Origin: Oleiharenicola sp.
Lineage (GTDB): Bacteria > Verrucomicrobiota > Verrucomicrobiia > Opitutales > Opitutaceae
Assembly (NCBI GenBank): GCA_025363455.1
Contig: JANYDW010000040.1
Span: 1 to 64,000 of the forward strand
Reading direction: 5' to 3'
Length of the DNA: 64,000 bases
A program made the position numbers and the translations under genes. Numbering within the stretch: the first letter of the stretch is position 1; each line of letters begins with the position of its first letter. This document shows, piece after piece, positions 4,160 through 55,638 of this stretch. The notes under the pieces are model-generated. The model searched no databases and was not told the DNA's origin. It worked only from the letters and a program-made list of their open reading frames with translations.

Positions 4160-4237
4160 GGAGGAAGGATGCCCGGACCCCGCAACGTCCCCTACCGTGA
4201 GTGAAACCGACGGACCGATGAGGGACCGTCTTGCTTG

Positions 4238-4333
4238 TTTCCTTCGCCGGTATGATCCGTTTCAGGTTCAGAGGGTTTAGCGATCGTGCGAACCGCAATC
4301 TCAGCCCTCCGCGGAGGACACCCCTACGAGCAC
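4238..4333 (-). promoter_or_regulatory. TPP riboswitch (THI element) upstream of the TonB receptor
   Basis: Read on the minus strand, the segment contains the conserved TPP aptamer blocks in the right order: GGGGTGTCC, GGAGGGCTGAGA, a variable arm with TGCGGTTCGCACGATCGC, then ACCCTCTGAACCTGA and ATACCGGCGAAGGAA. These correspond to the P2/P3 pyrimidine sensor with CTGAGA and the P4/P5 pyrophosphate sensor with ACC..GAACCTGA. The aptamer ends about 80 nt before the receptor ATG, leaving room for an expression platform. It should repress the receptor when thiamine pyrophosphate is plentiful. Confidence 0.93.
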
Positions 4334-4670
4334 CGCCAGCAAGATAGTTTTCCCGGGCGGTCGTCAACTCCCGGCTGTGTCACCCCCTATAAACATGAAG
4401 GGCGCCCCCTGCGGGACGCCCTGCATGACCTAACACCAAGCAAACCGTAAGAACTACAAACAATGATCGTTACCTAAAACGACGCACTGATGTCGTTAGG
4501 ATAGACGCGGGCCTCGGCAAAACGTTGAATCTTTTTTCAGGATTTCTTGTGAATAAGTTTTCCAAGATAGGACTGGTACTTGCTAATGAGCCCCAGTTGT
4601 TTACGCAGCGGTGAGGTTCCTGTTCCCGGGTGCGATGGCGCGCCCCGAATTGTTATAAACTTACGAAAAC
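4334..4670. other. Intergenic region without a recognised gene
   Basis: This AT-richer stretch separates the TPP riboswitch from the SIMPL gene and presumably holds both divergent promoters. A GC-rich imperfect hairpin (GGGCGCCCCC and GGGACGCCC) stands at about 4399-4421. On the minus strand, short open segments between about 4490 and 4630 read like protein (for example LGLISKYQSYLGKL) but are broken by stops and have no start. I do not call a gene. Confidence 0.5.
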
Positions 4671-5443: not shown

Positions 5444-5513
5444 GTAGAACCCGGCCTCCGGACGGGTTTTCAGGACGCACGCAAACGAACCCGCCCGGAG
5501 GGCGGGTTCCACC
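5444..5513. repeat. Palindromic repeat, family C (GTGGAACCCG...CGGGTTCCACC)
   Basis: Left arm GTAGAACCCGGCCTCCGGAC and right arm CCCGGAGGGCGGGTTCCACC enclose a short spacer. Related copies are at 18692-18795 (inside hrpA), 34859-34926 and 39276-39336 (inside nirV). Its right end reaches within 2 bp of the stop codon of the convergent aminomutase gene. Confidence 0.9.
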
Positions 5514-10914: not shown

Positions 10915-10984
10915 GTAGGGCGGGACCGCTGGGCCCGCCGTTATTCGAATGTGATGCGGCGCGCCCAGCGGTCGCGCCCTCCCC
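10915..10984. repeat. Palindromic repeat, family A, intergenic copy
   Basis: Left arm GTAGGGCGGGACCGCTGGGC and right arm GCCCAGCGGTCGCGCCCT bound the element between the convergent carA and kdsB genes. Read on the minus strand it is open and gives GRARPLGAP...GPAVPPYL, the same peptide that the copies inside tatD and hrpA encode. Confidence 0.92.
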
Positions 10985-12120: not shown

Positions 12121-12854
12121 TTGCCCGCGAATCACGCGAATTGACGCGAGAGCAGAGGCGGTCTTCCTCCTTCGCCAAGGCTACGGAGGACAAGCCGACC
12201 GGCCTTTTTATTCGGTAGTGGGTCCGTTTGATTGTAGGTCGGGCTTTATGCCCGACGATCAACGTCCATGTCGGGGATAAACGGCCAAGTGACAGCCACC
12301 CCCGAACACTCAAGTGACAGCCACCGCCGAACGCTTGGTATGGTGGTTAGCCCTGAGGCTGGGGAGGAGTGGAGGGGGCTTGGCCCCCTCCACCTTCTTG
12401 CCTGAGGGCGATGCGCGGAAGAAGTTGAAGGAATGACTCAACATGGGGCTGGCGAAAAGCGATGGTGCAATCGGTCCGCCAAGGGAGGAGCTACCGTGAA
12501 GCCGCCCGACGGTTTCGTGTGAGTGTGGCCACGGTGGCGTTGTGGATGAAGCGTGCGGCTGGCCGTAGGGTGCGCGAAGTGGATTGGCGGGATCGACCTG
12601 CTGGTGGTTTGCGCGCCCAAACGCGTACCAGCGCCCGGATCGTGCGCGCCCTTGGCCGGATCCCGATTGCTCACCCGCACCTTCCTCGTGCCCACTCGTT
12701 TCGTGACTCAAAAGCACCGACCGCTAACAAAAAGTGTTCAGGGGTGGGTGTCACTTGGCCGGTAAACCCCGACCTACAGTATCCCAAGCAGCGGTGGGAA
12801 ACCAAATGGACCCACTACCTTTTATTCGCGTATATTCGCGTCATTCGCGGGCAA
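12121..12854. repeat. Concentric inverted repeats around a decayed insertion element
   Basis: Four pairs of inverted arms are nested around one centre. The outermost is a word-type pair (TTGCCCGCGAATCACGCGAA at 12121 against its complement ending 12854). Next is GGTAGTGGGTCCGTTTG (12214) against 12803-12819. Third is GTAGGTCGGGC (12234) against CCCCGACCTAC (to 12777). Innermost is GGCCAAGTGACA followed by CCACCCCCGAACACT (12281-12308) against 12735-12761. A transposase remnant lies in the middle. The order suggests repeated insertion of one element into another. The outer arms abut the ptsH and tatD stop codons. Confidence 0.8.
12462..12650 (+). pseudogene. Transposase N-terminal remnant (helix-turn-helix)
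   Basis: About 62 residues read SVRQGRSYREAARRFRVSVA followed by TVALWMKRAAGRRVREVDW, a helix-turn-helix of the kind found at the start of IS630- or IS481-type transposases. The frame then degenerates and no DDE domain follows. The remnant sits between terminal inverted repeats with GGCCAAGTGACA. A tandem half-copy of the left end (AAGTGACAGCCACC) is present at 12310. It is a dead insertion element. Confidence 0.6.
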
Positions 12855-13704
12855 GTCCGAAAAACCGCTTCGCATTCGCCGTCGTGACCTCGGCCAGGCG
12901 CTCGTAACTCACGCCGAAGAGCCCGGCGCAGTACTCCGCTGTGTGACGCAGGAACGCGGGCTCGTTCGGCTTCCCCCGGTGCGGCATGGGCGTCAGGTAT
13001 GGTGCGTCGGTCTCGATCATCAGCCGGTCCAGCCCCTGCGCCAAGGCCGCCGCGCGGACCGGTTCGGCATTTTTGTACGTGACCACCCCGGTGAACGACC
13101 CATAGCCGCCGCGCTTCATCAGCTCGGCCATCTCCAGCGGTCCTTCCTTAAAACAATGGAACACCACCTTGCCCCAGTCGATCCCAGCGGCATCGATCAT
13201 TGCCACGCACTCGGCGAAGGCATTGCGGGAATGCACGACCAGCGGACACCCCAGTCGCTTCGCCAGCACCAGTTGCTCGGTGAACGCCGCCTTCTGCCAG
13301 CCGAATACCTTCTCCGCCTCCGCCGGATCCTTCGGCAGGTGAAAGCGGTCGAGTCCGGTCTCGCCCAAGGCGACGGGGTGGAGGTAGGGCGGGACCGCTG
13401 GGCCCGCCGCTCCGGTAGAATCATTCGGCGAGCCCAGCGGTCGCGCCCTACCCCAAAACGTCTCCAGCTGCGCCACATGCTCCGTCCAGTCCGCGCCTAC
13501 GTTGCACGGGTGCAACCCGACTGTGTAGCAGACGATGCCCTGATTTTCCCGGGCCAGGTCCAGGTTCAACGTCCAGTCGTCCGTATCGGTGCCGATGGCT
13601 ACCATGCCCTCCAGCCCGGCTGCAACCGACCGTTGCAGGATCGCCGGCAGTTCACCGCGCCGGGCAAAAGAATCGAGATGCGTGTGGGTATCGATAAGTC
13701 CCAT
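12841..13704 (-). CDS. TatD-family metal-dependent hydrolase with an embedded palindromic element
   Basis: A 287-residue TIM-barrel protein starting MGLIDTHTHLDSF (metal ligands H-x-H), with VGLHPCNVG, ALGETGLDRF, PLVVHSRNAF, VFHCFKEG and the final METDAPYLTP-type motif IETDAPYLTP. TatD proteins are cytoplasmic metal-dependent nucleases or deacylases. Residues about 85-107 are encoded by a family A palindrome and are not part of the normal fold; the flanking LETFW and HPVALGETG would be contiguous in relatives. The ATG at 13704 is chosen by homology. The stop codon lies in a word-type repeat arm. Confidence 0.92.
   Translation of the reverse strand: MGLIDTHTHLDSFARRGELPAILQRSVAAGLEGMVAIGTDTDDWTLNLDLARENQGIVCYTVGLHPCNVGADWTEHVAQLETFWGRARPLGSPNDSTGAAGPAVPPYLHPVALGETGLDRFHLPKDPAEAEKVFGWQKAAFTEQLVLAKRLGCPLVVHSRNAFAECVAMIDAAGIDWGKVVFHCFKEGPLEMAELMKRGGYGSFTGVVTYKNAEPVRAAALAQGLDRLMIETDAPYLTPMPHRGKPNEPAFLRHTAEYCAGLFGVSYERLAEVTTANAKRFFGLARE
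13384..13452. repeat. Family A palindrome inside tatD, in frame
   Basis: The element is 69 bp, a multiple of three, with the same arms as the intergenic copy at 10915-10984. It encodes GRARPLGSP, a short variable stretch and GPAVPPYL in the tatD frame. Confidence 0.93.
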
Positions 13705-13783
13705 GCCGTCATTGAACTCCCCGAAAACAGGGAAGCCAGCGCTTTCGCGCCGGCTTCCTGCACACACACACTGACAAATTAAT

Positions 13784-17024: not shown

Positions 17025-20000
17025 TTATTTGCGAAACAACTGATCCAGCGCCCCGAGGCTCTTGAGCGGAACGGCTTTCTTTGCCGCCGTGGTGGAGGGC
17101 TTGAGGTAGGGCGCGGACTCCGCTCCGCGCCTCTCGGCGGGCTGCGGAGTGCCCGCCCTGTCCAGTTCATCCAGCAATCGCTGCAACCGCACCGCGGATA
17201 CCGGTTCCGCCGTGCCCAGTTCCTGGGCAAACAGGCTCACGCGGAATTCCTCTACCAGCCAGCGGAGTTCGGCGGCAGCCGGGCCGAATTTCTTCACCGC
17301 TGCGGTGAATGGCGCCAACTCCACCGCGCGTTGCGCGTCCTTGGCCGCATCCCGCTTCCAGCGGTCGGCCCGGGCCAGCCGGCCCTTCAGAAAACGCGGC
17401 AGGTGCCGCACGCGCTCGAAGGGCGTCGCCCGGAGAAAATCCGGTGACAGCAAGGCCGCGAGATCCTCTGCGAGGCCGGGATACGGCTGCGCATGTGTCT
17501 CCAGCGCCAGCCGCAAAGTGAATATTTCCTTCAGCCAGTCGCCAAGCTTGGGCACGAGGCCGCGCAGATCCTGCTTCGACTGCGCGACGGCGTGATCGAA
17601 CGCGGACTTGGTCAGAAGGTAGGGCGCGGACTCCGTTCCGCGCCGCTCGGCGGGCAGCGGAGTGCCCGCCCTACCCATACGCGCCCCATCGCGCACCCAG
17701 CTTCGGATGCTCTCCAGCGCGTCGGCCTGCAGCTGGTCCGCCGACACCAGCGTCACCGCCAGCGTGCCAAGCATCCGCAGCGCGCGCAGGTCCTTCTCCA
17801 GCCAGCCTAAGTCATGACGCAGCTGAATGCCCATCAGTTTCTCCACGCCCGTCCGCGTGGCCGCCGTCGCTTCCTCCGGCGTCGCGAACAACCGCACCGC
17901 GACACCGGCGGGCAGGGACTTCAGACCCGGATACGCCAGCACGGGCACGCCATGCTTTTCCTCGACGAGCACGGAGGCGGGGAGATCGCCAAATTTCCAT
18001 TCCGTCGCCGGCTCGCTTTCCCACTTGGTGCGAGCGGCCCGCCACGCGGCGTTCTCCGTGCTGGCGGCCTTGCGGCTCACTTCGCGACTGCTGCTGTGCA
18101 ATAAGGCCTGGATCTCGGCGAGGTCGCGGCTCGCGCACAATACCTGGTCGTTGCTGTCCACGACCTCCACGCGCACCCGGAGATGATCCGGCAGCGCCTT
18201 CGTCGTCCACAAAGCGGGGTCGATCCTCACGCCCAGCCGGGGCTGAAGCAATTCTGCCAACGCCGCCGCGAGCGTGGGCTGCGTTGCACGTGCGGCAAGT
18301 AGCGCCAGGTCACGGGTGAGCCTTTGCGCGGTCTCCGTCAGCGGGATCAGTTCACGCCGCTGCTCCTTCGGCAGGGCCTTGAGCATCAATTCGACCTTTT
18401 CCGGCAAATGGCCCGGCACCGCCCAGTCGAGCGCGGCGAAGGTCAATGCCTCCGCCTCGGCCGGGCTCACCCGCACGGTCACGCCGTCCTCGGTCTTGCC
18501 CGGCTGGTAGGCGTAGGCCAGCGGCAGCACGCGATTGTCCACTGGCAGTTCGACCGGGAATGCCGCCGCGTCATGCTCCGGTTCCTCCGCCGGGCGCAGG
18601 TCGGCCTCGGACAGGAACAGGAACTTCGGCCGCGTTGTCTGCTCGTGCCGCACGAAGTCTACTAACTCCCCGACGCTGCTGATGCCTTGGGGTGGAACCT
18701 GACCTCCGGGCAGGTTTGCCTTGGACTCATCCTGCGGAAAGCCCGCCCGGCCTGTCGTCCGTAGCCTTGGCGAAGGATGAAGGCCGGGCTCCACCCTCGC
18801 GAACTCCCGCGCGTAGAACCGGTAGATCCACTCGTCGAGGTCCATGTAACCTGCGCTGCGCATCCGGGTAAGTACCGTCTCGGCCTGGTCGCGCATCCGA
18901 CGGTTGTGTGCGATGAAATCAAAAGGCCAGGTCACTGTATCGCCGACGAGGCCCTCGCGAATGAAAATCTCGGTTGCGTGCGCGGGATTGATCTTCCCAT
19001 AGCTCACGGAGCGCGTCTCCAGCTCGAGGTTGTAGAGCCGGCGACGCTCCTTCACCAGTACGCGGCCGCCCTCCGCGTTCCAGAACGGCTCGCTGTGCGC
19101 GACCTTCAGCAGGTGCGCCCCGAGGCTGAGCATCCATTGCGGGTCGATCCGGGCGCAGGTGCGGGCAAAGAGCCGGCTCGTCTCCATGATTTCCGCCGCC
19201 ATGAGCCATCGGGCGACCTTGGCCTTGGGCGGTAGGGCGTGACCGCTGGGCGCGCCGCTCTTTCGAGCTTCCCGCTTCTCAAACAACGCCGACCCCGGGA
19301 ACACGTTCACCCGTCGGTCGTGCGCGGCGTGGTAGTCGCCCTCGTCGGTGCGAGTGGCCACATTGCCCAGCAGGCCAGACAGGATCGACCGGTGGATCGC
19401 CGCGTACGCCGGCGTGCCCAGGCGCAGGTCAGGCTCTTCCGTAGGAGAGGCTTTACGCCCCGACAGTTTTTGGTCGCGGGGTAGACCCCCTCCGACAAAA
19501 CCATCGTAGATCGATGTCCGCTTGAAACCGTCGCGCTCGCGGAGCGTATCCTCAAGTTGCGCATAAACATCGCGCCACTCGCGCATGCGCATGAACGACA
19601 GGAAGTGCGCCGTGCAGAACTTGCGGAGCTTGCCGAGCGTCATGGCCTCGAACTCGTCGTGATACGTCTCCCAGATCGATAGCAACGTCAGGAAATCGGA
19701 ATCCGGATGCGTGAAGCGCCGGTGCGCCGTGTCCGCCTTCTGCTGGTGGTCGAGCGGGCGCTCCCGCGGGTCCTGGATGCTAAGCGCCGCGGCGATGATC
19801 AGCACTTCGCGCAGCGCGTTCTCCGACCGGGCCCGCAAAATCATGCGTCCAACCGTCGGGTCCACCGGCAGGTGCGCCAGCTCGCGGCCGAGGTCGGTCA
19901 GCACCCCGCCGTCGTCAATGGCACCCAGCTCGTGCAACAAGGCGTAGCCCGCGCGAATGCCCTTGATCGGCGGGGCGTTCAGGAACGGAAACTCCTCGAT

Positions 20001-21239
20001 GTCCCCGAGCCCAAAAGCCTTCATGCGCAAAATTACATCCGCCAGGTTGCTGCGCTGGATCTCCGGCTGGGTGAAGCGGGGGCGGTCCTTGAAGTCCTGC
20101 TCGGAATAAAGCCGGATGCAAACACCGTCACTCACCCGGCCGCAGCGGCCTTTGCGTTGATCGGCGCTGCTCTGCGAAACCGGCTCGACCGGCAGGCGGC
20201 GCGTGCGGCTCTGCGGCGTGTAGCGGCTGAAGCGTGCCAGCCCGGTGTCGATGACGAAGCGGATGCCGGGGATTGTCAGCGAAGTCTCGGCGATATTGGT
20301 CGCAAGGACGATCTTGCGCGCCTGGGTCGGTGCGAATACGCGCTGCTGCTCGGCGTTGGTGAGCCGGCCAAATAACGGCACAATCTCGAGCCGTCCGAGC
20401 CGGCGGCCCTCCAGCAGATCGCGCGCCTCGCGGATGTCGCGCTCCGTGGGCAGAAAAACCAACACGTCGCCCGCCGAGCTCTCAAGCAACACGCGCTCGA
20501 CCGCTTCGACCGCCGCGTCGATGTAGGTGACATCATCGCGACTTGCCTTTGGGTAGGGCGGGACCGCTGGGCCCGCCGCTGATTCCCGCGGACGGCCCGG
20601 CGGTCCGTCCTTACCCATCTCTTCCAAGGGCGCGTAAATCACCTCCACCGGATAAACCCGCCCCGACACCTCGATGATCGGCGCGCCATCGAACGCCTTG
20701 GAAAAGGCCTCGGTGTCGATTGTCGCGGAGGTGATGACGATCTTCAGGTCCGGCCGGCGGTGCCGTAGCCGCCGCAGGTGCCCGAGGATGAAATCGATGT
20801 TGAGCGAACGCTCGTGCGCTTCGTCCACGATAATCGTGTCGTAGTCGCGCAGCTCCGGGTCCGCCTGCAGTTCGGCGAGCAGCATGCCGTCGGTCATGAA
20901 CTTGATCACCGTGTCACCCGAGGTCTGATCGGCGAAACGGATCTTGCAGCCCACCTCACGGCCAAAAGTCACATTCAGCTCCTCCGCCACCCGACGCGCC
21001 ACCGAGGTCGCGGCCACCCGCCGGGGCTGCGTGCAGGCGATGCGTCCGAGTTCGCCCCGGCCGGCCACCAGACACATCTTGGGGATCTGGGTGGTTTTGC
21101 CCGAACCCGTCTCGCCGGCCAGGATCAGCACCTGGTGGTGCTGGATGGCCGCGATGATCTCGTCCGCCCGGGCACTGATGGGCAGCTCGGGCGGATACTC
21201 GATCCGGAAGGGCCAGGGTTTCTTGGGCCGGGGTGGCAT
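17025..21239 (-). CDS. hrpA: ATP-dependent RNA helicase HrpA carrying six palindromic-element insertions
   Basis: A 1404-residue DEAH-box helicase with Walker A AGETGSGKTTQIPK, DEAH box IIVDEAHERSLN, SATIDTEAF, ATNIAETSLTIPG and QRKGRCGRVSDGVCIRL, followed by HA2, OB and the long C-terminal DUF3418 region. HrpA unwinds mRNA and rescues stalled ribosomes. It is longer than the roughly 1300 residues usual for the family. Six segments, at about residues 209-229, 577-600, 652-669, 815-849, 1188-1207 and 1359-1378, are encoded by dispersed palindromic repeats, all in frame, in loops or linkers. The helicase motifs are intact, so the protein is probably functional. Confidence 0.95.
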   Translation of the reverse strand: MPPRPKKPWPFRIEYPPELPISARADEIIAAIQHHQVLILAGETGSGKTTQIPKMCLVAGRGELGRIACTQPRRVAATSVARRVAEELNVTFGREVGCKIRFADQTSGDTVIKFMTDGMLLAELQADPELRDYDTIIVDEAHERSLNIDFILGHLRRLRHRRPDLKIVITSATIDTEAFSKAFDGAPIIEVSGRVYPVEVIYAPLEEMGKDGPPGRPRESAAGPAVPPYPKASRDDVTYIDAAVEAVERVLLESSAGDVLVFLPTERDIREARDLLEGRRLGRLEIVPLFGRLTNAEQQRVFAPTQARKIVLATNIAETSLTIPGIRFVIDTGLARFSRYTPQSRTRRLPVEPVSQSSADQRKGRCGRVSDGVCIRLYSEQDFKDRPRFTQPEIQRSNLADVILRMKAFGLGDIEEFPFLNAPPIKGIRAGYALLHELGAIDDGGVLTDLGRELAHLPVDPTVGRMILRARSENALREVLIIAAALSIQDPRERPLDHQQKADTAHRRFTHPDSDFLTLLSIWETYHDEFEAMTLGKLRKFCTAHFLSFMRMREWRDVYAQLEDTLRERDGFKRTSIYDGFVGGGLPRDQKLSGRKASPTEEPDLRLGTPAYAAIHRSILSGLLGNVATRTDEGDYHAAHDRRVNVFPGSALFEKREARKSGAPSGHALPPKAKVARWLMAAEIMETSRLFARTCARIDPQWMLSLGAHLLKVAHSEPFWNAEGGRVLVKERRRLYNLELETRSVSYGKINPAHATEIFIREGLVGDTVTWPFDFIAHNRRMRDQAETVLTRMRSAGYMDLDEWIYRFYAREFARVEPGLHPSPRLRTTGRAGFPQDESKANLPGGQVPPQGISSVGELVDFVRHEQTTRPKFLFLSEADLRPAEEPEHDAAAFPVELPVDNRVLPLAYAYQPGKTEDGVTVRVSPAEAEALTFAALDWAVPGHLPEKVELMLKALPKEQRRELIPLTETAQRLTRDLALLAARATQPTLAAALAELLQPRLGVRIDPALWTTKALPDHLRVRVEVVDSNDQVLCASRDLAEIQALLHSSSREVSRKAASTENAAWRAARTKWESEPATEWKFGDLPASVLVEEKHGVPVLAYPGLKSLPAGVAVRLFATPEEATAATRTGVEKLMGIQLRHDLGWLEKDLRALRMLGTLAVTLVSADQLQADALESIRSWVRDGARMGRAGTPLPAERRGTESAPYLLTKSAFDHAVAQSKQDLRGLVPKLGDWLKEIFTLRLALETHAQPYPGLAEDLAALLSPDFLRATPFERVRHLPRFLKGRLARADRWKRDAAKDAQRAVELAPFTAAVKKFGPAAAELRWLVEEFRVSLFAQELGTAEPVSAVRLQRLLDELDRAGTPQPAERRGAESAPYLKPSTTAAKKAVPLKSLGALDQLFRK
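17106..17163. repeat. Family A' palindrome in hrpA (C-terminal tail)
   Basis: Arms GTAGGGCGCGGACTCCGCTC and GGAGTGCCCGCCCTG. It encodes RAGTPQPAERRGAESAPYL in the hrpA frame, nearly identical to the copy at 17619-17676. Confidence 0.92.
17619..17676. repeat. Family A' palindrome in hrpA (second copy)
   Basis: The same 58-bp element as at 17106-17163, in the same orientation and reading frame. It encodes RAGTPLPAERRGTESAPYL. Confidence 0.92.
18692..18795. repeat. Family C palindrome in hrpA, with a second repeat nested in it
   Basis: Outer arms GTGGAACCTGACCTCCGGGC and GGCCGGGCTCCACC. The spacer contains CGTCCGTAGCCTTGGCGAAG, a word that also occurs at 12169-12195 and in the tRNA-associated repeats. 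The hrpA frame continues through all 104 bp. Confidence 0.85.
19232..19266. repeat. Half copy of a family A palindrome in hrpA
   Basis: Only the left arm, GTAGGGCGTGACCGCTGGGC, is recognisable and encodes the end of GAPSGHALPP. The right arm is eroded or was never present. Confidence 0.7.
19441..19509. repeat. Family D-like palindrome in hrpA
   Basis: Begins GTAGGAGAGGCTTTACGCCC and ends near CCATCGTAG, with internal GGTCGCGGGGTAGACC. It resembles the element split by the insertion sequence at 12234-12777. It encodes about 23 residues (GLPRDQKLSGRKASPTEEP). Confidence 0.75.
20553..20615. repeat. Family A palindrome in hrpA (helicase domain linker)
   Basis: The element is 63 bp with arms GTAGGGCGGGACCGCTGGGC and GCCCGGCGGTCCGTCCTTAC. 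It encodes GPPGRPRESAAGPAVPPY, sharing GPAVPPY in the same frame with the copies in tatD and upstream of kdsB. It lies between the two RecA-like domains after YAPLEEM. Confidence 0.92.
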
Positions 21240-37845: not shown

Positions 37846-38490
37846 CTATCTGGCTGCCGTGACCAACGCCGCCGTGGCTTCGTCGAGCCCGCCCTTGAGG
37901 CCGGTGCGCTGGTGGACGATCTCACCGGCGGGATTGAGGATGGTGAGGAGGTTGGAGTGGGAGAACGCACCGTCGGCCTCCTGCTTGTACTTCACGCCGA
38001 CGAGCGCCGCGAGCTCCCGGACGACGTCGTCGCTGCCATGGAGCAGGATCCATGAGGAATCGAGCGCGCGTTGTGTGCGGTAGGCCGCCAGCGCGGCCGG
38101 GGTGTCGCGGGCCGAATCGAAGGATACCAGCACGAACACGGCGCGGGCTCGGAGTTCCGCCGGAAGTTTTGCGGCAATCGCTTCCATATCTGAAACGGTC
38201 AGCGGGCAGGCGTAGCCGCAGGAGGCGAAGAACAGGTCGAGCACGACGGGCCGCCCGTGAAGCTCGCCCAGTGTGAAAGTCCGGCCCGAATCGTCCGTGA
38301 ACTTGCCGTCGAGCTGGTAGATCGAGTCTTTGCTGAATGGTGCGCCGGCCATCGCTTCGCAGCAGGCGTCCTTGGTGGCTGCCTTTTCTGGTAGGAGCGT
38401 GCTGGCACGCGATGGATGGGCGGCATCGCCTGCCAGCAGGATCCCACAACAAACCAAGGCGGCGAGGACGGGAATGGATTTTGTTTTCAT
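37846..38490 (-). CDS. SCO family protein (copper chaperone type) with a repeat-derived signal region
   Basis: The 214-residue protein has a thioredoxin-like SCO domain with the CxxxC in FFASCGYACPLTV and the distal His in FSHSNLLTIL. SCO proteins deliver copper to cuproenzymes, apt beside nirK. Its start overlaps the nirV stop by 4 bp. Residues about 15-33 (CCGILLAG to TLLP) derive from a family B palindrome that forms part of the signal peptide. Confidence 0.9.
   Translation of the reverse strand: MKTKSIPVLAALVCCGILLAGDAAHPSRASTLLPEKAATKDACCEAMAGAPFSKDSIYQLDGKFTDDSGRTFTLGELHGRPVVLDLFFASCGYACPLTVSDMEAIAAKLPAELRARAVFVLVSFDSARDTPAALAAYRTQRALDSSWILLHGSDDVVRELAALVGVKYKQEADGAFSHSNLLTILNPAGEIVHQRTGLKGGLDEATAALVTAAR
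38391..38447. repeat. Family B palindrome inside the SCO gene, in frame
   Basis: The element is 57 bp, a multiple of three, with arms GTAGGAGCGTGCTGGCACGC and GCCTGCCAGCAGGATCCCAC. It falls just at the signal peptide. Confidence 0.9.
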
Positions 38491-39403: not shown

Positions 39404-39475
39404 GTAGGGCGGGATCGCTGATCCCGCCACGAACATGTCGTCGTCTGCGAGGCGGGATCATCGATCCGCCCTACA
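39404..39475. repeat. Family A palindrome between nirK and nirV
   Basis: Arms GTAGGGCGGGATCGCTGATC and GATCATCGATCCGCCCTAC. It may weaken transcription from nirK into nirV by forming a hairpin. Confidence 0.9.
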
Positions 39476-41408: not shown

Positions 41409-41484
41409 TGGTGCCCCCGCCCGGAATTGAACCGGGATCACACGTTTAGGAAACGCGTGCTCTATCCATTTGAGCTACGGGGAC
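41409..41484 (-). tRNA. tRNA-Arg (anticodon CCT), integration site of the mobile element
   Basis: The 76-nt fold has acceptor GTCCCCG/CGGGGGC, D arm GCTC/GAGC, anticodon arm CGCGT-TTCCTAA-ACGTG and T arm CCGGTTCAATTCCGG, with encoded CCA. Anticodon CCT reads AGG. The mobile element abuts its 5' end, so the 5' half (anticodon loop to start) is the shared att sequence and the upstream region, including the promoter, is now element DNA. Confidence 0.95.
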
Positions 41485-41487
41485 TAA
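41450..41487. other. attL (5' half of tRNA-Arg)
   Basis: A 38-bp stretch identical to 55744-55781, starting GAAACGCGTGCTCTATCC and ending CTACGGGGACTAA. It spans the anticodon loop to three bases beyond the tRNA 5' end. Confidence 0.93.
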
Positions 41488-41529
41488 TGTAAGTTAAGCA
41501 CTTACGAAAATAGCACACCAAAAAGGGGC

Positions 41530-41553
41530 AAAAGTTCTACCAAAAGTTCTACC
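41530..41553. other. Tandem integrase arm-type sites, left end
   Basis: AAAAGTTCTACC occurs twice in tandem, followed by TTGGTG. The same doublet is found at the right end, which fits binding sites for the integrase N-terminal domain. Confidence 0.75.
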
Positions 41554-41898
41554 TTGGTGCTCCATATTTACCCATGTCTTAGGTTGTGCACTCATGACTT
41601 CAAGGCGGAAGGTTCGGAATCATCGGCGGAATGCAGCCGGCCTACTGCGGGGCAGGCGTGAATCCGCCGACATCTCGATGCTGTTTTTCTCCCGGTCTGC
41701 ACTGGCAGGTTCGGGGTGTGACCACGAAGCAATCCGACGGCTTTCCCCATGTGGCCATTCCCACTGACATCATGTAGGCTACTGCTCAGCGCCCCTCACG
41801 CGCTGCGGAGCCTCCCACGCCTCACTTATCACGTCATCGTCATCCACATCCACATGCGGTTCGCCAATCCGGCTAAACTCGAACTGCGACAGCAATTC
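41554..41898. other. Gene-free left end of the mobile element
   Basis: About 345 bp after the arm sites contain an imperfect inverted pair (ATCATCGGCGG and CCGCCGACAT at about 41620-41675) and no convincing gene. A short plus-strand frame at 41749 lacks recognisable features. Confidence 0.5.
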
Positions 41899-42540
41899 TT
41901 ACAGTTTTCTCTCTGCCATTACCACAAGTGAGGGGAGAAGCAGATGGTGATTAGTGTTGAACTTGTTACTCCATTCCACGCAGTCCGCTGGCAACGTTTT
42001 CGGTTTGCCAGAAATCAGTAGCACCTCGAAAACAACAAGCCTGTGCCGCGAACCTAGATAATGATCTCTGAATTGTTGCGCTTCTTGCGGAGTTCGGATC
42101 TTCAAAGAAAACCAAGCTCCATCCCCGCGTAGGGCAGAGTCGAGATCGGGATCCTTGGCCTGCCATTGCAAATCCTTTAACCGTTGGTCTAAAGCGGCCG
42201 TATCCTCGGCGACAGTGGCATTGCTCCATGATTGCACCGTAAATTTCATGGTGACCGAATTCTTCAGCTTGGTCCCATTAACTGATTCCACTTTCAGCAA
42301 AAATCGCCCGGTCGGAGAATTGTCGAGAAGCAGGAGTTCGTCTTCGACAGTTGCCACGATCTCTACTGCTGTAAGAAGTGGCAGCCCCAGTTCGCCTAGA
42401 ACAACAGTATTGCCTTCATCAATTTCCTTTACTGAGACCGCATGTGGCTTAGTCGGAGCTGGTGCACTTTCGGCCAAAACCGAAGCGTCAGTCATCAGGC
42501 CAAGGACAAGAAGGAGTGCGGAAATCTGTTTCGGCTTCAT
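41899..42540 (-). CDS. Hypothetical exported protein
   Basis: About 213 residues from ATG 42540, with a signal peptide (ISALLLVLGLMTDASVLA) and a beta-rich body (VVLGELGLPLLTAVEIVATV, LLLLDNSPTGRFLLKVESVN). No family is recognised. Its ATG overlaps the stop codon of the upstream secreted-protein gene (ATGA), so the two are translationally coupled. It is the last gene of a four-gene exported-protein operon. Confidence 0.7.
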   Translation of the reverse strand: MKPKQISALLLVLGLMTDASVLAESAPAPTKPHAVSVKEIDEGNTVVLGELGLPLLTAVEIVATVEDELLLLDNSPTGRFLLKVESVNGTKLKNSVTMKFTVQSWSNATVAEDTAALDQRLKDLQWQAKDPDLDSALRGDGAWFSLKIRTPQEAQQFRDHYLGSRHRLVVFEVLLISGKPKTLPADCVEWSNKFNTNHHLLLPSLVVMAERKL

Positions 42541-43433
42541 GTACCATTTGGTACGCAAAACTTGATAAATATAGGACCATCAAAACTTCCCAAGGCCGGC
42601 ATCGGGACCGCGGAAAACTCAGTCATCGTCTGTGTGCTAATCCCTGGATAGTCATGGTTAATACCAATCCACGTTTGGGTGTCTGGCATATATACAACAT
42701 AGTCGAAGTTGTCGTTTGCATCTTTGTCACCCATGCTGCCCGGATCCACTTCTCCGTTGTTTCCTTGTTGAGGTAAGCCATTCTTCCATTTTCCGTATTT
42801 TGCCGCAATGACGGTATGGAATCCCGACGGACACGCAGCGGAATTATTCAAAGCGGCTAATGACAAATACGCCGTCTTAGTGCCATAAATCGGATTTGTT
42901 TCTGTCTCCGGGCGGCCAGTGGGCCCATAACCAGGATAACGGTGAGCTGTATTATTATTAAGATCCCGGCGCGCCATAATTCTGAGAAACCCGATGCAAC
43001 CGGTATCGAGCATTTTCTGCACACCAGGATCAATTGGGATTTGAAAACGATTATGCACGTAGGTCGCTATGGCGTCTCGACCTACCCCAACCGGAGTCGC
43101 GCTAAATCCGTAGTTGGGAAAATTGGTTGAGTTCCATGTGATGTGTGACCTCGCCGCAGGGGAGGGCAACCATGTCAAGCTCTCATAGCTGTAGGAATAA
43201 TAACAATCCCCGCTGACATAATCTAGTAATGTTACATCTTCTCCGAAGTTGAGATAATGCTCGCAGGTGAAAGTCGTCGAGTATCCCGACGCACAGCCGA
43301 TATTGCTACGGACGATTATTTTCTTAATACCCTCAATATCGCTATTGTTTATGTCGGTAACATCCGCTTGTGCGCTAAGTGGTAGTAGTGCGAGCACGAC
43401 CGCAAGGAAGAAGCCTTTGGTTTGTATCTTCAT
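42537..43433 (-). CDS. Hypothetical exported protein with several cysteines
   Basis: The 298-residue protein has a signal peptide (MKIQTKGFFLAVVLALLPLS, cut at AQA-D). Cysteine pairs (NIGCASGYSTTFTCEHYL, SGDCYY, DTGCIGF, AACPSGF, FCVPNG) suggest disulfides. It contains many Asn, Tyr and Gly and no family motif I know. It lies between two other exported-protein genes and overlaps the next by 4 bp. Confidence 0.72.
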   Translation of the reverse strand: MKIQTKGFFLAVVLALLPLSAQADVTDINNSDIEGIKKIIVRSNIGCASGYSTTFTCEHYLNFGEDVTLLDYVSGDCYYSYSYESLTWLPSPAARSHITWNSTNFPNYGFSATPVGVGRDAIATYVHNRFQIPIDPGVQKMLDTGCIGFLRIMARRDLNNNTAHRYPGYGPTGRPETETNPIYGTKTAYLSLAALNNSAACPSGFHTVIAAKYGKWKNGLPQQGNNGEVDPGSMGDKDANDNFDYVVYMPDTQTWIGINHDYPGISTQTMTEFSAVPMPALGSFDGPIFIKFCVPNGT

Positions 43434-43442
43434 AAATAGTCC

Positions 43443-44399
43443 TCAGTTTGTCTTTATTTCGCTGAACTTGAGCGCGCCGACCATCCCATGAAGTGGTGCT
43501 CCGTCAGGAGCGCACCACTCGGGGAAGCTGTCGGGCAGTGGTGTGGTGAGGACAAATTCGGATGGTGGACTGGATGCTCTGGCCACTTGCCAAGCGACAC
43601 GCAAATCTGCAAGCACTTCTGCACGAGCATTCGCGTTCAACGGTTTTCCCAAGGTCTTTATTTCGAAGTCATCCGGGACACCGTTGTCATTGATGTCCTC
43701 GAATAGCGGATTCTCATCGCTGCAAACGAGCCCGCATAACCAGGCCCCTCCTTTCCCGGCAGTAATATGAATTTCCGACAATCCATTTTCGGGGGCGGGT
43801 AAAGGCATATCTTCTGCCACGAGCGTGTCACGAAACCACATCGCCCACGTGCCCGCACCCTTGTCCAGTTTTATGGTGACTATATCGAGAGTCGCCATGC
43901 GCGCAGCTTCAAACAACATTAGAGGTACCTCGTGATTGATAAGCTTGTTTGTACCATTGCCATGAATTGCGGCATACGAACTATCCTTCAGGCTGGTCTC
44001 GATGACTATCGATGCACCACCTACACTGATCATACTTCCGATTGATGCATTCAAAGTGAAGGTTACGTAATTTGCTCCCGCTTTCTGGACCCTCAGGGGT
44101 CTATGCCACACCGAGCTTGGTTCGATTGCCAGATAGGGCGCGTCACCTCGGGCTTTTAGCTGGGAGTGTTGGTCAGTGGTGAGGCTGAGGACCTCGAATG
44201 CGTCGCCTCGCACCGGTTTCTTGCCGAGTTGATCTGCCTCAGAGGTTAAGCGAGGCAGGCCTAGCGGGGCTTTTCGCAAAATCGAAATAGTGGATTCAGT
44301 TCCGAATACTCGTGGTGCGATTAGTGATACGCAAAGGAGCGCCGAATATGCCAGCGCTCGTTGAGAAGATGGCGAAAATGCACATGTATGAATTCTCAT
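43443..44399 (-). CDS. Hypothetical exported protein with a calcium-loop-like motif
   Basis: The 318-residue protein has a signal peptide (ALAYSALLCVSLIAPRVFG), a jelly-roll-like middle (VTFTLNASIGSMISVGGASI, GTWAMWFRDTLVAED) and DENPLFEDINDNGVPDDFEI, a D-x-N-x-x-x-D loop of the EF-hand or thrombospondin-3 kind often placed before C-terminal segments of secreted verrucomicrobial proteins. Nine bases separate it from the next exported-protein gene. Confidence 0.72.
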   Translation of the reverse strand: MRIHTCAFSPSSQRALAYSALLCVSLIAPRVFGTESTISILRKAPLGLPRLTSEADQLGKKPVRGDAFEVLSLTTDQHSQLKARGDAPYLAIEPSSVWHRPLRVQKAGANYVTFTLNASIGSMISVGGASIVIETSLKDSSYAAIHGNGTNKLINHEVPLMLFEAARMATLDIVTIKLDKGAGTWAMWFRDTLVAEDMPLPAPENGLSEIHITAGKGGAWLCGLVCSDENPLFEDINDNGVPDDFEIKTLGKPLNANARAEVLADLRVAWQVARASSPPSEFVLTTPLPDSFPEWCAPDGAPLHGMVGALKFSEIKTN

Positions 44400-44591
44400 A
44401 GAGCAATTCCTCTTTATGGGTGGGACCGTCAGTTAATATATCCAAACGCTATACCTAGCGTGATATGTGGCCCTCACATCACAGTAGCAGTTATATTTTC
44501 TGCAGCGTCCGCGAAAACAAATCAAATTCATTCGCGCCCACGAGAGGTGCTTTTCAAAGTAGACATTGATTTGCAATGGGTCGCATCTGAG

Positions 44592-45257
44592 TCACCGCAC
44601 GAGCGCGTAAAGGAGGAACCGCTGGCTCGTCCCATCTGAAAAAGTTGCGAGGCAGAAGATTGTGGCGGTTGTCCCGGCCCATGTCGCCGAATCGGGAAGA
44701 ACTGTGAGCGTGTACTTGGCTTTTTCCTCGAGCGATTCGATCCGCGCTGTGGTCTTCGATGGATCGATGCGAACGATTTCAACTCTAGCGAATTTGTATC
44801 CCGTGGCAGGCGATATTGTCACCGACTTCGCGGCTTTCGCTTCGCCGTCGCGCCATAGCAACATCCGCGGTGAAAAGTTGACCAGATCCGGAATCATTAC
44901 TCTTAGAACAAGCAGTACCGAACTTGTTGGAATTTCGTCTGTCGTTACGGAGATGATATTTTCCTGCTGCCCTGTTCGTTCACCAAGCACGAAGATCGCT
45001 TTGATCTCGCCCGATTCCCCAGGACCATAGATCCGTTTCGTCAATTCTGCAGAAGTGCATCCGCAGCTCGTACTAATGTCGGTGATTGTGATGGGAGTGT
45101 TTCCTGAATTTTTGAAATAGAATACTCCCATAGCCTGTGTGGCGCCATGTGTGGCGGTTAGATCGATTTTTTGGGTATTCCAGCTGAGTGCCCCAAACCC
45201 GCACGTCGGCCCTAAGCATGCTGCAATGGTCAGAAATTTTGCTATGAACGCATTCAT
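44592..45257 (-). CDS. DUF1573 domain exported protein
   Basis: The 221-residue protein has a signal peptide and an N-terminal immunoglobulin-like domain of the DUF1573 type: FYFKNSGNTPITITDISTSC followed by GCTSAELTKRIYGPGESGEI and VLGERTGQQENIISVTTDE. These domains are extracytoplasmic and of unknown function. It heads the four-gene exported-protein run on the minus strand; a gap of 192 bp separates it from the next gene. Confidence 0.82.
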   Translation of the reverse strand: MNAFIAKFLTIAACLGPTCGFGALSWNTQKIDLTATHGATQAMGVFYFKNSGNTPITITDISTSCGCTSAELTKRIYGPGESGEIKAIFVLGERTGQQENIISVTTDEIPTSSVLLVLRVMIPDLVNFSPRMLLWRDGEAKAAKSVTISPATGYKFARVEIVRIDPSKTTARIESLEEKAKYTLTVLPDSATWAGTTATIFCLATFSDGTSQRFLLYALVR

Positions 45258-45474
45258 CGGTGGAGTTTGGTCATCTTGGCGAATTTAAGGATGTGTCCGG
45301 CAATCGACGGTCAGTACGCCAGCGCTTGATATTCTAAAGTCAATGACATCATCGCCGCTTTCGTCATGATTGCCGGCAATGCGGCCATTGGAAACATCCA
45401 AACGCCCGTAATCCTATAGCCTATTGATGTTCACTGGTTACAAACCAATGGACCCTCAGCGCCTCTCTCCCTTC

Positions 45475-45795
45475 TTACGCTCCCGGGATTCCGATCAAAT
45501 CGAGCGACGCTTGCTCTAGGCCGGTCGTCGCCGATACGGATGCTGCCGGTGCCATCTGCGTCGCGCGGCGGATGTAGTCGCAAACCGAATCGTAGGCGAC
45601 CAGACGTACCCCGCGCAGTGACCCGCGCTGCCGCAGTGCGACCATCTTGATTTCGCCGGAGCCGGCGGCCTTGTAATACCAGCCGCGCGAAAGCCCGAAA
45701 TGCGGGTCGCGCTTGCCGGGTGCCGGCAGTCGGAAGAATTCAACGCGCTGCATTGCAGCGTCGGTCGGCAGAGGAGTGTTTGGGAGTGAGTTCAT
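45475..45795 (-). CDS. Putative excisionase / AlpA-like DNA-binding protein
   Basis: The 106-residue protein contains FFRLPAPGKRDPHFGLSRGW, then YYKAAGSGEIKMVALRQRG and GVRLVAYDSVCDYIRRA. The order helix-turn-helix, basic wing (ALRQRGSLRGVRLV) and Y-D-S-x-x-x-Y-I is what excisionase-like winged helices of integrative elements in this phylum look like. GGA lies 8 bases before the ATG. Its position inside an integrase-bearing element supports the role; it remains inference. Confidence 0.55.
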   Translation of the reverse strand: MNSLPNTPLPTDAAMQRVEFFRLPAPGKRDPHFGLSRGWYYKAAGSGEIKMVALRQRGSLRGVRLVAYDSVCDYIRRATQMAPAASVSATTGLEQASLDLIGIPGA

Positions 45796-45822
45796 GGTTA
45801 TTCCTTTTGTTGTTGGTTGATT

Positions 45823-45969
45823 TCAAAAAATCTGAGTTCGGCTCGTGCGCTCGCCAATGACGCGCACCTGCTGAATTTGCGGTAGCCGGTCTCCCGCTTT
45901 TGCGGTAGGCGCAGGCGCATTGTTTGCCGCGGCGGGAGCTGCTGGGATCGATTCTTGGGATGAGTTCAT
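45823..45969 (-). CDS. Possible small protein (48 residues)
   Basis: From ATG 45969 a 48-residue frame rich in Ala, Pro and Gln (ESIPAAPAAANNAPAPTA, then LPQIQQVRVIGERTSRTQIF) ends just before the excisionase-like gene. Both begin with MNS. Coding is uncertain and there is no family match. Confidence 0.3.
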   Translation of the reverse strand: MNSSQESIPAAPAAANNAPAPTAKAGDRLPQIQQVRVIGERTSRTQIF

Positions 45970-46012
45970 GGGCGTTTGCTTTCGTTGTGGGCACATCTTA
46001 CAGCAACATTCC

Positions 46013-46168
46013 GCGCGAAAATAGGGGCAGCGTGTGAAGCGCGCGCTGATCCTATTTTCGCCCGATGCCAGCCCACGTGGTGATGCGATGCCTTCATGCC
46101 AGCATCATACCCCACCTCGGCACTCAGAAATAGGGGCAGCATTGGGGGTCCTATGCTGCCCCTATTTC
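46013..46168. repeat. Two hairpins with ATAGGGGCAGC arms
   Basis: The first hairpin (46015-46061) has arms GCGAAAATAGGGGCAGCG and CGCTGATCCTATTTTCGC. The second (46127-46168) has GAAATAGGGGCAGCA and TGCTGCCCCTATTTC. They resemble the hairpins associated with REP-type transposases, but no such transposase is in the window. Confidence 0.75.
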
Positions 46169-46174
46169 GCGGGG

Positions 46175-46261
46175 GTGGTCACGGTTTCCATGGCGGCGAT
46201 AGACTTTCTCAAGGTCTACGGGCCGCAGCGAGGCGTCGGTATGGAAACCGACGCCCACCCC
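46175..46261. repeat. Family E repeat in the mobile element
   Basis: Arms GTGGTCACGGTTTCCATGGC and TATGGAAACCGACGCCCACC. The complement of the ada element at 29878-29962 aligns with it over nearly its full length. Confidence 0.85.
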
Positions 46262-46878
46262 CCGCATCGTCGGCTCAGGCGGCTGGCGCGCCAACGAGCG
46301 CGCAACGATTGCTTTCTTGTTAGTTGCCCCGAGCCGGGGGTGCGGGGGCGGCGGCAAGCGCCCCGCCTTTTGCGGCGGCTACCCCCGAGGCGAAGCCGAG
46401 CCGCCGCAATCTCGGCACCGTCCGACTGCCGTGGCCCGACACCGCAAATGCGGCCCTGGGCCCAGCCACGGGTCGGCGGGCCGGAGGCGAAGCGCAGCCG
46501 GAGCCGTAGCGCCCGGCGTCCCGTGGTCCGAGCCCGACATGCCGCGATCTCCACGAGGGGACGCGGACAGACCGCCGCGGTTGCCTGCGTTCCTTCGTGG
46601 GTGTCAAACTTTCGTAAGTGCGAAACGAGGCAAGCTGTCGTGCCTGATCTGTGTGTTCATGGATGACGGAGCCGGCCCGGCAATTCGTTACCATTTTGGT
46701 AAGGGGTAATGTGTCTGCCTAAAAAAGAAACGCATCTGCGTTTCGGATCGGGGACCGTGGTCGGTCGGTTCGGGCGAGACTTACACTTTTCTCGGTAGGA
46801 CATCATTCGCACCGGGAGGCGTGTCGCATGTCTCCGTGTTGACTTCTCGCGCCTATAGTAGAGGGGCACGCATAAATC
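46262..46878. other. Gene-free region upstream of the relaxase, probable oriT region
   Basis: A very GC-rich stretch (46270-46600) without credible genes is followed by two compact dyads. TTACC-5-GGTAA at 46688-46702 is followed by GGGGTAATGTGTCTGCC, and GAAACGCA-TC-TGCGTTTC lies at 46727-46744. Short hairpins followed by a T-G-T-C-T tract just upstream of a MobF relaxase gene resemble the nic region of R388-like origins. No biochemical signal can confirm it here. Confidence 0.45.
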
Positions 46879-49632
46879 ATGTTGAGACCAAAACCTCAGT
46901 TGAATCTGCACAATGCGCGGGAGTATTTCCGCGAGCATCTGTGCGTGGGCGACTACTATTCGGAGGGACAAAAGATCGCTGGCGAGTGGTACGGAAAGGC
47001 GGCAGAAAAGCTGGGGCTGGCAGGTGTAGTTACGGAGAAAGACTTTCTCGCCCTGTGCGAAGGACTTCATCCGCAGACCGGCAAACGGCTGACGCAGCGG
47101 ATGAACACCGTCCGCTATGAGAACGGCCGGACTGCGGCCAATCGGCGAATCTTTCATGATTTTACCATCAGTCCGCCGAAGAGCGTGTCGGTGGTTGGGC
47201 TCTATCAGGATGCCCGCATCATCGAGGAACATCATCGGGCGGTGCTTTGCGCGCTGGCGGAACTGGAAAAATTGGCTGAAACCCGGGTCCGTAAGGCGAA
47301 GCAGAACGGCGAGCGCGTCACTGGCAGCATAGTCGCGGCGTGTTTCCGGCATGATACCAGCCGGGAACTCGACCCTCATCTCCACTCACATTGCGTCGTT
47401 TTCAACGCCACCCATGACCCGGTGGAGGACCGCTGGAAGGCCCTCCAAACGGGCGGGATGTATCGGGCCCAGAAATTTGCCGAGAACATCTACTTTCATG
47501 AGTTGAGCAAGGGCCTCCACTCACTCGGCTATGAGATCGAGAACAATGCGCGCAATTTTGAGATCAAGAACGTGCCGGCGAGTGTCATTGCCCGGTTCTC
47601 CAAGCGACATGCCCAAATCGATGCCGAGGCCAAACGGCAAGCTGCCACGGGCTATGCTGGTGACCTGGGCGAGCTACGCACGCGGGTCGCACACGAGCAT
47701 CGCCGCCGCAAAATCAAGAACTCCTCCGCCGACGAACTGCGACCACATTGGAGCAGGCAACTCGCACCCGACGAACAGCGGGCGCTTGCGTGGCTCCGTG
47801 TCGCATCGGCCGGTCCTTCCCAGACCGCCGATGTGCGCGGAATCGTTGCCTGGGCCGACGAGCACCTTTTCGAACGCCGGTCAGTAGTGAACGACTATGA
47901 ACTGATGGCCGCAGCGCTCGCGCGTGGCCGCGGTCACGACTTCGACCTCGTCGATCTCAGGCGCGCGATTGAGGAACGTGACTACGCCCGGAAAGAAGAC
48001 TCACCGAAACTCATCTCGCGGGAATTGCTGCGTTGCGAGTTGGAGATCGTGGTTGCCGCCCGCGATGGCCGCAATTGCTTCTTCAACTTGGGGCCCAACA
48101 ACTATCAGCCGGACTCGGGCCTTTCGCCGGAACAGGCACAGGCGGCACGACGGATTCTGACCAGCCACGACTTTATCACTCTCTTCCGTGGCGGCGCGGG
48201 CACCGGCAAAAGCCATACGCTGAAGGAGGTCGCGCGTGGTATCACGGCTGAGGGTAGTCCGGTCATGGTGCTGGCGCCCCAACGCCAGCAGGCGCAGGAC
48301 CTGCAAAACGAGGGGCTGCCCGCGCAGACCCTGGCCCAGGCCCTCACGACCCGCCAGTTTACGCCCCACGTGGTTGTCATCCTGGACGAAGCCGGCCAGG
48401 TCGGTGGCAAAGACCTCCGGGAGCTGATCGTGCTCGTGAAGGCCCAGCGTGGCCGGCTGATCCTCTCTGGCGACACCCGCCAGCATGGCGCCGTCGCGGC
48501 GTCGGATGCCCTGCGGGCCATTGAAAAGCACTCCTACCCGCGCGTGGCCGTGCTCCGCACCATCCGCCGGCAGAATCCTGAGCTTGCCCGGTCGGCAGAA
48601 GAAAAGCAGTTCATCCGGAGCTATCGCACCGCCGTAAAGGAAGCGGCTTCGGGCAAGATTGCGGAGTCTTTCGATCGGTTGGAAAAGCTGGGCTGTGTGC
48701 GGGAGCTGCCGGACGAACCGCGCCGGGTGGCACTGGCCTGCGAATACCTCAACGCCATCGGCCGCGATGAGCGCCCGCTTGTCGTCGCCCAGACCTGGGA
48801 CGAAGTCCGTGCGGCCAACGATGCGGTCCGGGCGGCGCTGCGATCGGCCGGGAAATTGGAAGCGGGCACGATGCTGACCACCTACCAGCCGCTCGACCGC
48901 ACCGAAGCGCAAAAGCGCGATAGCCGCTTTTACGAGCCGGGCCAGTCGGCGGTTTTTCTCAAGCGGTATGGCCGTTTCAAAAAAGGGGACCTTTGCGGAA
49001 TTGGCGGAGCCAATGAGCGCGGCGTCGTCATCGTGAAGGATGGCCGGGCATCAACGGTGAGCTATCGGTATGCCGACCGGATCGCCGTCGCAAAGGCGAC
49101 GGAAATGGAAATTGCGCCCGGCGACCGCCTTCAACTCAAGGCCAATGGCCGCAGCATCGAGGGCGCCCGCCTGCACAACGGCGAGTTGGTAACCGCCGCC
49201 CGCGTCGAACCGACGGGTGCGCTGGTGGTCACCGATGAACGCGGAACAACGAAAACGCTCGCACCGTCCCACCGGCTGCTCGTCCGGGGATACGCCGTCA
49301 CCTCCTACGGGTCGCAAGGCCAGACCACAGACACCGTAATTGTTGCCGATGCTGGCAACCGAGCCGCAACAAGCGAGGAGCAGTGGTATGTGAGCATTTC
49401 CCGCGGCCGAAAGCGTGTCGTCGTGTTGACGCCGGACAAGGCGGCACTGCGCGAGAACATCCAGCGCAACAGCGAACGCGAGCTGGCACTGGAAAACACC
49501 CCAGACCGCAAACGTGCCGAACGTGAATATCAAGGCTGGCACAGGAGGCATGAGATAGTCCGTCGCAATGTGATGCGGCACGAGTTCGTGATGCGGCAGA
49601 TTCAGCGTCAACAAATCCGTCAACGCATATGA
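46879..49632 (+). CDS. MobF-family relaxase-helicase (TrwC/TraI type)
   Basis: The 917-residue protein has an N-terminal TrwC relaxase domain: an early Tyr pair in GDYYSEGQK, FTISPPKSVSVVGL, and the 3-His metal motif in FRHDTSRELDPHLHSHCVVF near 157-172. A helicase follows, with Walker A RGGAGTGKSHTL (about 439), Walker B VVILDEAGQV, GDTRQHGAV and the final SYGSQGQTTDTVIVAD motif. It nicks oriT and unwinds the transferred strand. No coupling protein or mating-pair genes accompany it, so it defines a mobilizable element. Confidence 0.95.
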   Translation: MLRPKPQLNLHNAREYFREHLCVGDYYSEGQKIAGEWYGKAAEKLGLAGVVTEKDFLALCEGLHPQTGKRLTQRMNTVRYENGRTAANRRIFHDFTISPPKSVSVVGLYQDARIIEEHHRAVLCALAELEKLAETRVRKAKQNGERVTGSIVAACFRHDTSRELDPHLHSHCVVFNATHDPVEDRWKALQTGGMYRAQKFAENIYFHELSKGLHSLGYEIENNARNFEIKNVPASVIARFSKRHAQIDAEAKRQAATGYAGDLGELRTRVAHEHRRRKIKNSSADELRPHWSRQLAPDEQRALAWLRVASAGPSQTADVRGIVAWADEHLFERRSVVNDYELMAAALARGRGHDFDLVDLRRAIEERDYARKEDSPKLISRELLRCELEIVVAARDGRNCFFNLGPNNYQPDSGLSPEQAQAARRILTSHDFITLFRGGAGTGKSHTLKEVARGITAEGSPVMVLAPQRQQAQDLQNEGLPAQTLAQALTTRQFTPHVVVILDEAGQVGGKDLRELIVLVKAQRGRLILSGDTRQHGAVAASDALRAIEKHSYPRVAVLRTIRRQNPELARSAEEKQFIRSYRTAVKEAASGKIAESFDRLEKLGCVRELPDEPRRVALACEYLNAIGRDERPLVVAQTWDEVRAANDAVRAALRSAGKLEAGTMLTTYQPLDRTEAQKRDSRFYEPGQSAVFLKRYGRFKKGDLCGIGGANERGVVIVKDGRASTVSYRYADRIAVAKATEMEIAPGDRLQLKANGRSIEGARLHNGELVTAARVEPTGALVVTDERGTTKTLAPSHRLLVRGYAVTSYGSQGQTTDTVIVADAGNRAATSEEQWYVSISRGRKRVVVLTPDKAALRENIQRNSERELALENTPDRKRAEREYQGWHRRHEIVRRNVMRHEFVMRQIQRQQIRQRI

Positions 49633-49779
49633 ATTTAAAGCAAGAAATCGAGCAACGCAACGCAGCCGAAGGGTACGTGCCATGTCATGAGGCCGGTTCG
49701 AACGCGAGAATGGTCACGCTTGAATGAGACTAACTTTCGTACCCAACAAGTACGGTAATTCGACGGACGATTACTCCGA

Positions 49780-52726: not shown

Positions 52727-52727
52727 C

Positions 52728-53429: not shown

Positions 53430-53508
53430 TCACTCGGACCAGCTCCCCGCTCTCACAACGGGACCAATTCAACCTTGAGCGTCCTCCGGCACAGGTTACA
53501 AAATTTCC

Positions 53509-55622: not shown

Positions 55623-55638
55623 GGCAAAAGGGTAGACA

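Follow-up and report, generated by a model that had tools for sequence, protein, structure and literature searches.

Six REP elements of four families lie in frame within the hrpA helicase gene of an Opitutaceae bacterium

REPs are usually treated as extragenic. An inverted pair of REPs is reportedly the mobile unit and a RAYT its likely mobiliser, as Bertels and Rainey are said to have argued in 2011 for the REPINs of Pseudomonas fluorescens, which were described as extragenic. Copies inside genes figure in a survey of 2013, whose O. terrae we take to be Opitutus terrae. That survey defines the GTAG REPs and reports intragenic copies, which are most numerous in O. terrae of the Verrucomicrobia, where the targets include RNA helicases, uvrA and DNA ligase (Di Nocera et al. 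2013, PMC3733652). The available portion of it further describes ORFs with two insertions, clusters in Thauera and R. conorii that code for 43-82 aa, and the recB gene of two Xanthomonas species, where different REPs sit at roughly one site, and it groups the intragenic RPE-4 and RPE-6 of R. conorii with CGTC-tagged repeats, for which no dedicated transposase seems to exist (Di Nocera et al. 2013). No further work on REPs in HrpA or in Verrucomicrobia appeared among the matches listed from the open-licence literature.

The window, the whole stretch of 64,000 nucleotides that was analysed from an Oleiharenicola sp. of the Opitutaceae, holds a gene for the DEAH-box RNA helicase HrpA (Table 1) with DEAD, Helicase_C, HA2, OB and DUF3418 domains, the best solved relatives being the HrpA chains 9ggr, 9gft and 6zww. 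A strong match (best E-value 0) is found in 17 of 20 genomes of the same genus, and the nearest matches that bear a name come from Lacunisphaera and other Opitutaceae. Purifying selection acts on hrpA, with a core dN/dS of 0.064-0.143 against six relatives, two of which are identical over the core; Rfam gives no match at the gathering score within the gene. As a preliminary description of this DNA had claimed, the gene carries six palindromic inserts, all of them open in the hrpA frame with neither stop nor frameshift. None overlaps GETGSGKT, TQPRR, TDGML, DEAH, SAT, LVFLP, ATNIAET or QRKGRCGR, the strings that we take to be the helicase motifs of HrpA. The count of four families also stood, while the names first given to them (A, A', C and D) are replaced here by A, C, D and E. 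S2 is a clean pair, whereas S1, S3, S5 and S6 each have a degenerate tag or arm and S4 consists of one REP.

Table 1. Positions in the window of hrpA, its six inserts and further REP copies
Feature	Position	Strand	Residues	Location
hrpA, DEAH-box RNA helicase HrpA	17025..21239	minus	1404	complete, hosts six inserts
S1, family A REP pair, second tag degenerate	17106..17158		18	aa 1361-1378, C-terminal tail
S2, family A head-to-head REP pair (REPIN)	17619..17674		19	aa 1189-1207, DUF3418 loop
S3, family C (GTGG-tagged) pair with a further short palindrome within	18692..18791		34	aa 817-850, linker before or at the DUF3418 start
S4, single family D REP, tag antisense to hrpA	19232..19256	+	9	aa 662-670, loop of the OB-fold region
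S5, diverged family E pair	19441..19497		20	aa 581-600, linker joining helicase module and OB fold
S6, family D head-to-head pair, second tag GTAA	20553..20615		21	aa 209-229, loop between DEAD and Helicase_C
Single family D REP	13384..13408	+		in frame in a TatD-type DNase gene (12841-13767, minus)
Family D copy	10915..10939	+		intergenic
Family D copy	39404..39428	+		intergenic
C-type head-to-head pair, tags GTAG and GTGG	5444..5512			intergenic

Elsewhere in the window a TPP riboswitch lies on the minus strand at 4222-4335. The 3' part of a tRNA-Arg (41450-41487) occurs a second time, as an exact copy, at 55744-55781. The interval encodes a phage-type integrase (54477-55652) and a TrwC-type relaxase (46879-49629), and the stretch 41409-55781 is probably a tRNA-integrated mobile element of 14.3 kb.

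In each repeat unit a short stem-loop follows a tag, GTAG or GTGG, and the six inserts are GTAG/GTGG-tagged REPs, mostly arranged as head-to-head pairs (REPINs). A scan for tag, stem and loop of families A, C, D, E and F in 2,377,273 bp of the window's genome (36 contigs including the window, 63.3% GC) recovers 518 REPs against two in the reversed, uncomplemented control, with 148 units of D, 132 of F, 107 of E, 88 of C and 43 of A. The family D pattern occurs at 175 places in the whole 4.23 Mb genome and its reversed counterpart at none. A family-free scan for a tag plus hairpin shows no excess over the reversed control, either in the window (74 versus 78) or in 71 hrpA genes (293 versus 342); the evidence therefore lies in the repeated families, since hairpins alone do not beat their control. 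REPs spaced by no more than 110 bp form 177 neighbouring pairs, 157 of which are head-to-head and of one family. Mixed-family adjacency, which concerns 15 of these pairs, was considered as a sign of REP insertion into REPs and rejected, there being no expectation to judge it against. The repeats are dispersed and occur also between genes, as had been stated: 270 of 356 elements are intergenic, 48 lie inside genes and 38 at gene edges. The 263 intergenic elements that lie between two called genes occupy 93 convergent, 148 unidirectional and 22 divergent spacers; relative to all 1220 spacers of at least 60 bp (219, 743 and 258, respectively), their share is raised in convergent spacers and not in unidirectional ones.

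The genome contains 11 Y1_Tnp matches, one of which lies outside the scanned stretch. Among the ten that were scanned for flanking REPs, six have REPs of the same family on both sides, namely family D at C62 and C60, family E at C25 and C42, and family F at C75 and C57. A seventh (C81) has a C REP at one end and a D REP 0.8 kb away, and the other three, one of them at a contig end, have no flanking REP. No RAYT with family A REPs is present among the ten, and for family C the association is one-sided. Of eight such proteins compared with the NCBIfam entry for the REP-associated tyrosine transposase, six score above its cut-off and two match below it. The tag, the head-to-head pairing and the same-family REPs that flank RAYT genes thus place the repeats in the REP/REPIN class with RAYT. 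The RAYT at C62 (L030:2481-2969) itself runs into its own flanking D REP, so that its last residues, GGPSGPALP, are REP-encoded.

Unlike the REPINs ascribed to Bertels and Rainey, some copies in this genome are read as protein. The elements resemble the GTAG REPs of the 2013 survey in their unpaired GTAG tag (GTGG in most of one O. terrae family), their stems of 6-9 bp with mostly short loops, their head-to-head dimers and RAYT-flanking copies and their insertion into genes as extra peptide, as well as in the verrucomicrobial host and the targeting of RNA helicases and repair genes (Di Nocera et al. 2013). They differ from the cases in the available portion of that survey in that hrpA has six elements of four families in one gene and in that slots are reused over many species with turnover of families, where the survey gives one same-site case in two species, the Xanthomonas recB gene; its lists of target ORFs, which are placed in additional files, may in part include the hrpA slots already (Di Nocera et al. 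2013). The likeness to the Rickettsia palindromic elements that the preliminary description had drawn holds good, as both are short palindromic repeats that have spread into reading frames and are translated. By the survey's description of RPE-4 and RPE-6 of R. conorii, it is the tag that sets them apart, CGTC in those elements and GTAG or GTGG together with RAYTs in these (Di Nocera et al. 2013). In-gene REPs are already in print and the class of element is not new, while the reuse of slots across species is, on the available portion of the survey, less well documented.

Genes called with a simple caller of our own cover 86.7% of the scanned 2.38 Mb and contain just 48 of the 356 elements, which means that the elements avoid genes. 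Counted over all six frames, the proportion without a stop hardly differs between in-gene and intergenic copies, at 0.608 (n = 17) versus 0.594 (n = 127) for pairs and 0.817 (n = 31) versus 0.795 (n = 143) for singles, and is 0.653 in random genome stretches of pair length. Choice of the translated frame for a hydrophilic peptide was considered and rejected, given that the used frame is the most hydrophilic in 5 of 41 cases where 9.7 are expected (one of 42 elements being unusable) and that used frames are slightly less hydrophilic (mean -0.50 versus -0.85). One fixed reading phase per family was likewise discarded, since several phases per family occur genome-wide in a table that omits 6 of the 48 in-gene elements because their flank does not score as coding. 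With open-frame shares alike and the used frame not the most hydrophilic, the in-frame copies look like the remainder of frame-blind insertion followed by loss. hrpA is an outlier, holding five of the 48 in-gene elements by strict detection, which the diverged E pair at S5 escaped; in random placement a maximum of five in one gene was reached in 1 of 20,000 draws, a figure to be read in the light of the window having been singled out for hrpA beforehand. The TatD-type DNase gene with its in-frame D REP is another possible DNA-metabolism target, and a family F REP lies near the 5' end of a called SCO1/SenC-type frame (37846-38490), where it may precede the true start.

AlphaFold2 models of residues 1-870 (mean pLDDT 75.1) and 800-1404 (85.0), each built from a 31-sequence alignment, place all six insertion points in predicted flexible linkers, loops or the tail. 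The pLDDT is below 50 at residues 210-235 (S6), 582-600 (S5), 658-672 (S4), 819-850 (S3) and 1365-1393 (the S1 tail), and S2 is in a predicted loop between helices at about residues 1192-1210, within a block of pLDDT 56-58. The remaining stretches below 50 in the first model are 1-6, 317-320 and 336-351, and because the latter two belong to the conserved core, low confidence by itself is no proof of a loop. Compared with most of 71 aligned full-length relatives the protein has five extra stretches, the fifth of which, at S1, amounts to only 7 residues. S4 and most of S1 fall within stretches of variable length in that alignment, and the length of the S4 linker varies among relatives generally.

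The same slots are occupied in other species. When a REP is assigned to a family at no more than five mismatches, S6 holds REPs of five families in 10 of the 71 genes, S5 of two families in 4, S4 of two families in 9, S3 of six families in 12, S2 of six families in 8 and S1 of three families in 6; by the same rule 10 of 400 random same-length segments of these genes fit a REP consensus, some of which may overlap real inserts. At S4 several relatives have a family C REP instead of D. The fewest state changes on the core tree, a quick one under a simple model, are nine at S6, four at S5, six at S4, 11 at S3, eight at S2 and six at S1, a total of 44 that excludes long slots lacking a consensus match and includes, at S4, loss of the label by decay. 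The 71 rows contain four pairs that are identical or nearly so over the core (L061/L047, L063/L049, L104/L050 and L069/L051) and several that end before S1, and the totals are the same with or without duplicate and truncated rows. The preliminary description had looked to relatives that lack the inserts, and in part these exist: L061 and L047, which share one core sequence and branch in the tree as the sister of the window's gene, show no recognisable REP at the slots (the L047 row ends before S1), with S6, S5, S3 and S2 short and S4 and S1 present as ordinary variable stretches. Other relatives are not empty and have REPs of other families there.

In several genomes the family found in the slot is also one that is dispersed in the genome. 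Slots are filled by X in G012 (41 X copies), by X and B in G017 (94 X, 72 B), by X in G018 (17 X), by B in G011 (15 B) and by B in G009 (6 B), whereas the window's genome, whose hrpA uses A, C, D and E, has no X copy and one B copy. The match is not general, as G004, G007 and G014 hold 20, 8 and 8 X copies without an X-labelled slot among the available rows. A family C insert at S3 is common to L031, L032 and L122 with similar flanks, and S4 has a family C REP in several species in varied states of decay. The related S3 inserts suggest that some insertions are old and were lost elsewhere, and together with the decaying S4 copies they indicate that not all are recent. Peptides of the AKAS/AKAT type (L052, L064, L070 and L096) and of the NQKSKIENS type (L059 and L078) also lie in HrpA slots and seem not to be GTAG REPs, and other dispersed repeats may therefore occupy these slots as well. 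The HrpA of L059, an Opitutaceae protein with an open frame of 1569 aa (G023, a single contig of about 6.0 Mb), has by eye long inserts at S5, S3, S2 and near residue 445, one insert bearing a GTGG-tagged palindrome.

The explanation that accounts best for these observations, and that we consider highly probable, is that RAYT-mobilised REPs of four families inserted without regard to frame and survived in tolerant linkers, in slots that have been refilled and emptied across species. The six inserts most probably owe their mobilisation to RAYT transposases of the same genome. Insertion as such would be blind to the reading frame, and most copies that hit genes would be lost. The hrpA copies, it is proposed, were spared because all of them landed where the chain is flexible, be it a linker, a loop or the tail, so that the 9-34 residues encoded by a REP leave the helicase undisturbed; the peptides themselves would then be neutral. 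In related species the few permissive slots would have been filled and emptied by various REP families through repeated gain, loss and family turnover, although the order of gains and losses at each slot is one that we infer. One observation counts against plain independent insertion into an empty site, namely that at S6 a flank that is not part of the REP (approximately QKKSRPDD) is found in genes with different REP families and is missing from the short ones.

The latter observation bears on an alternative that is on balance unlikely but keeps some force, in which each slot had an ancestral REP cassette and new families replaced old ones in place at the GTAG...CTAC boundaries, either through RAYTs that target existing REPs or through recombination between REPs. 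The near-identical register of inserts across species speaks for such an exchange: at S2, CTAC closes the inserts of families A, X, B, D and N alike, with a similar flank within about one codon, at S4 a single D REP (L031) and a single C REP (L032) end in CTAC/CCAC in the same register with homologous codons next, and the S6 flank is common to many filled genes whatever their REP family. Similar registers would, however, also result from a tight permissive loop with repeated insertion and selection, and the S2 register and the S6 flank fit equally well with repeated insertion into an older, longer loop that was later deleted in some lineages. Moreover, genes with empty slots are interspersed in the tree, so that empty intermediates may have existed. 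A bolder version, in which the Opitutaceae HrpA is a set of REP docking slots where REPIN cassettes swap at their GTAG/CTAC ends in a RAYT-driven exchange of linkers, is somewhat less probable again; if true, whichever mobile repeats are current in the host would continually rewrite the linkers of this one conserved enzyme.

Improbable, but deserving of mention, is that insertions were selected because they have a regulatory effect on HrpA activity or expression, through their peptides or through hairpins in the mRNA. The outlying count of in-gene elements in hrpA and the repeated refilling of slots across relatives are both compatible with such adaptive tuning, and similar speculation on replication and repair genes is found in the available portion of the 2013 survey (Di Nocera et al. 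2013). Against this, some close relatives have an intact gene without any labelled insert (L061), the encoded peptides differ among species, the used frame has no hydrophilic bias, and a long protein with many linkers simply offers more permissive sites. The preliminary description had considered an undescribed class of coding-tolerant repeats, and six open inserts in one gene might suggest a class specialised for coding regions, but this is now very hard to sustain: the tag, the dimer form and the RAYT link are those of known REPs and REPINs, genes are strongly avoided, in-gene copies are largely no more often in frame than chance and purifying loss would give, as their near-intergenic share of open frames indicates, and in-gene precedent is in print in what is available of the survey (PMC3733652). 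An assembly or binning artefact of this metagenome contig is barely credible, for although the genome is split into 83 contigs and assembly can go astray at short repeats, REPs occupy the same slots in further assemblies, including one that is a single contig (G012), and the hrpA frame is intact throughout.

With frame-blind, RAYT-driven insertion and survival in tolerant linkers as the preferred reading, the six translated copies and about 40 aligned relatives with varied filling form a natural record of repeats entering, sitting in and leaving a conserved enzyme. The inserts mark where a DEAH helicase tolerates insertions, and through the hrpA slots one can examine whether one REP takes the place of another at a fixed position.
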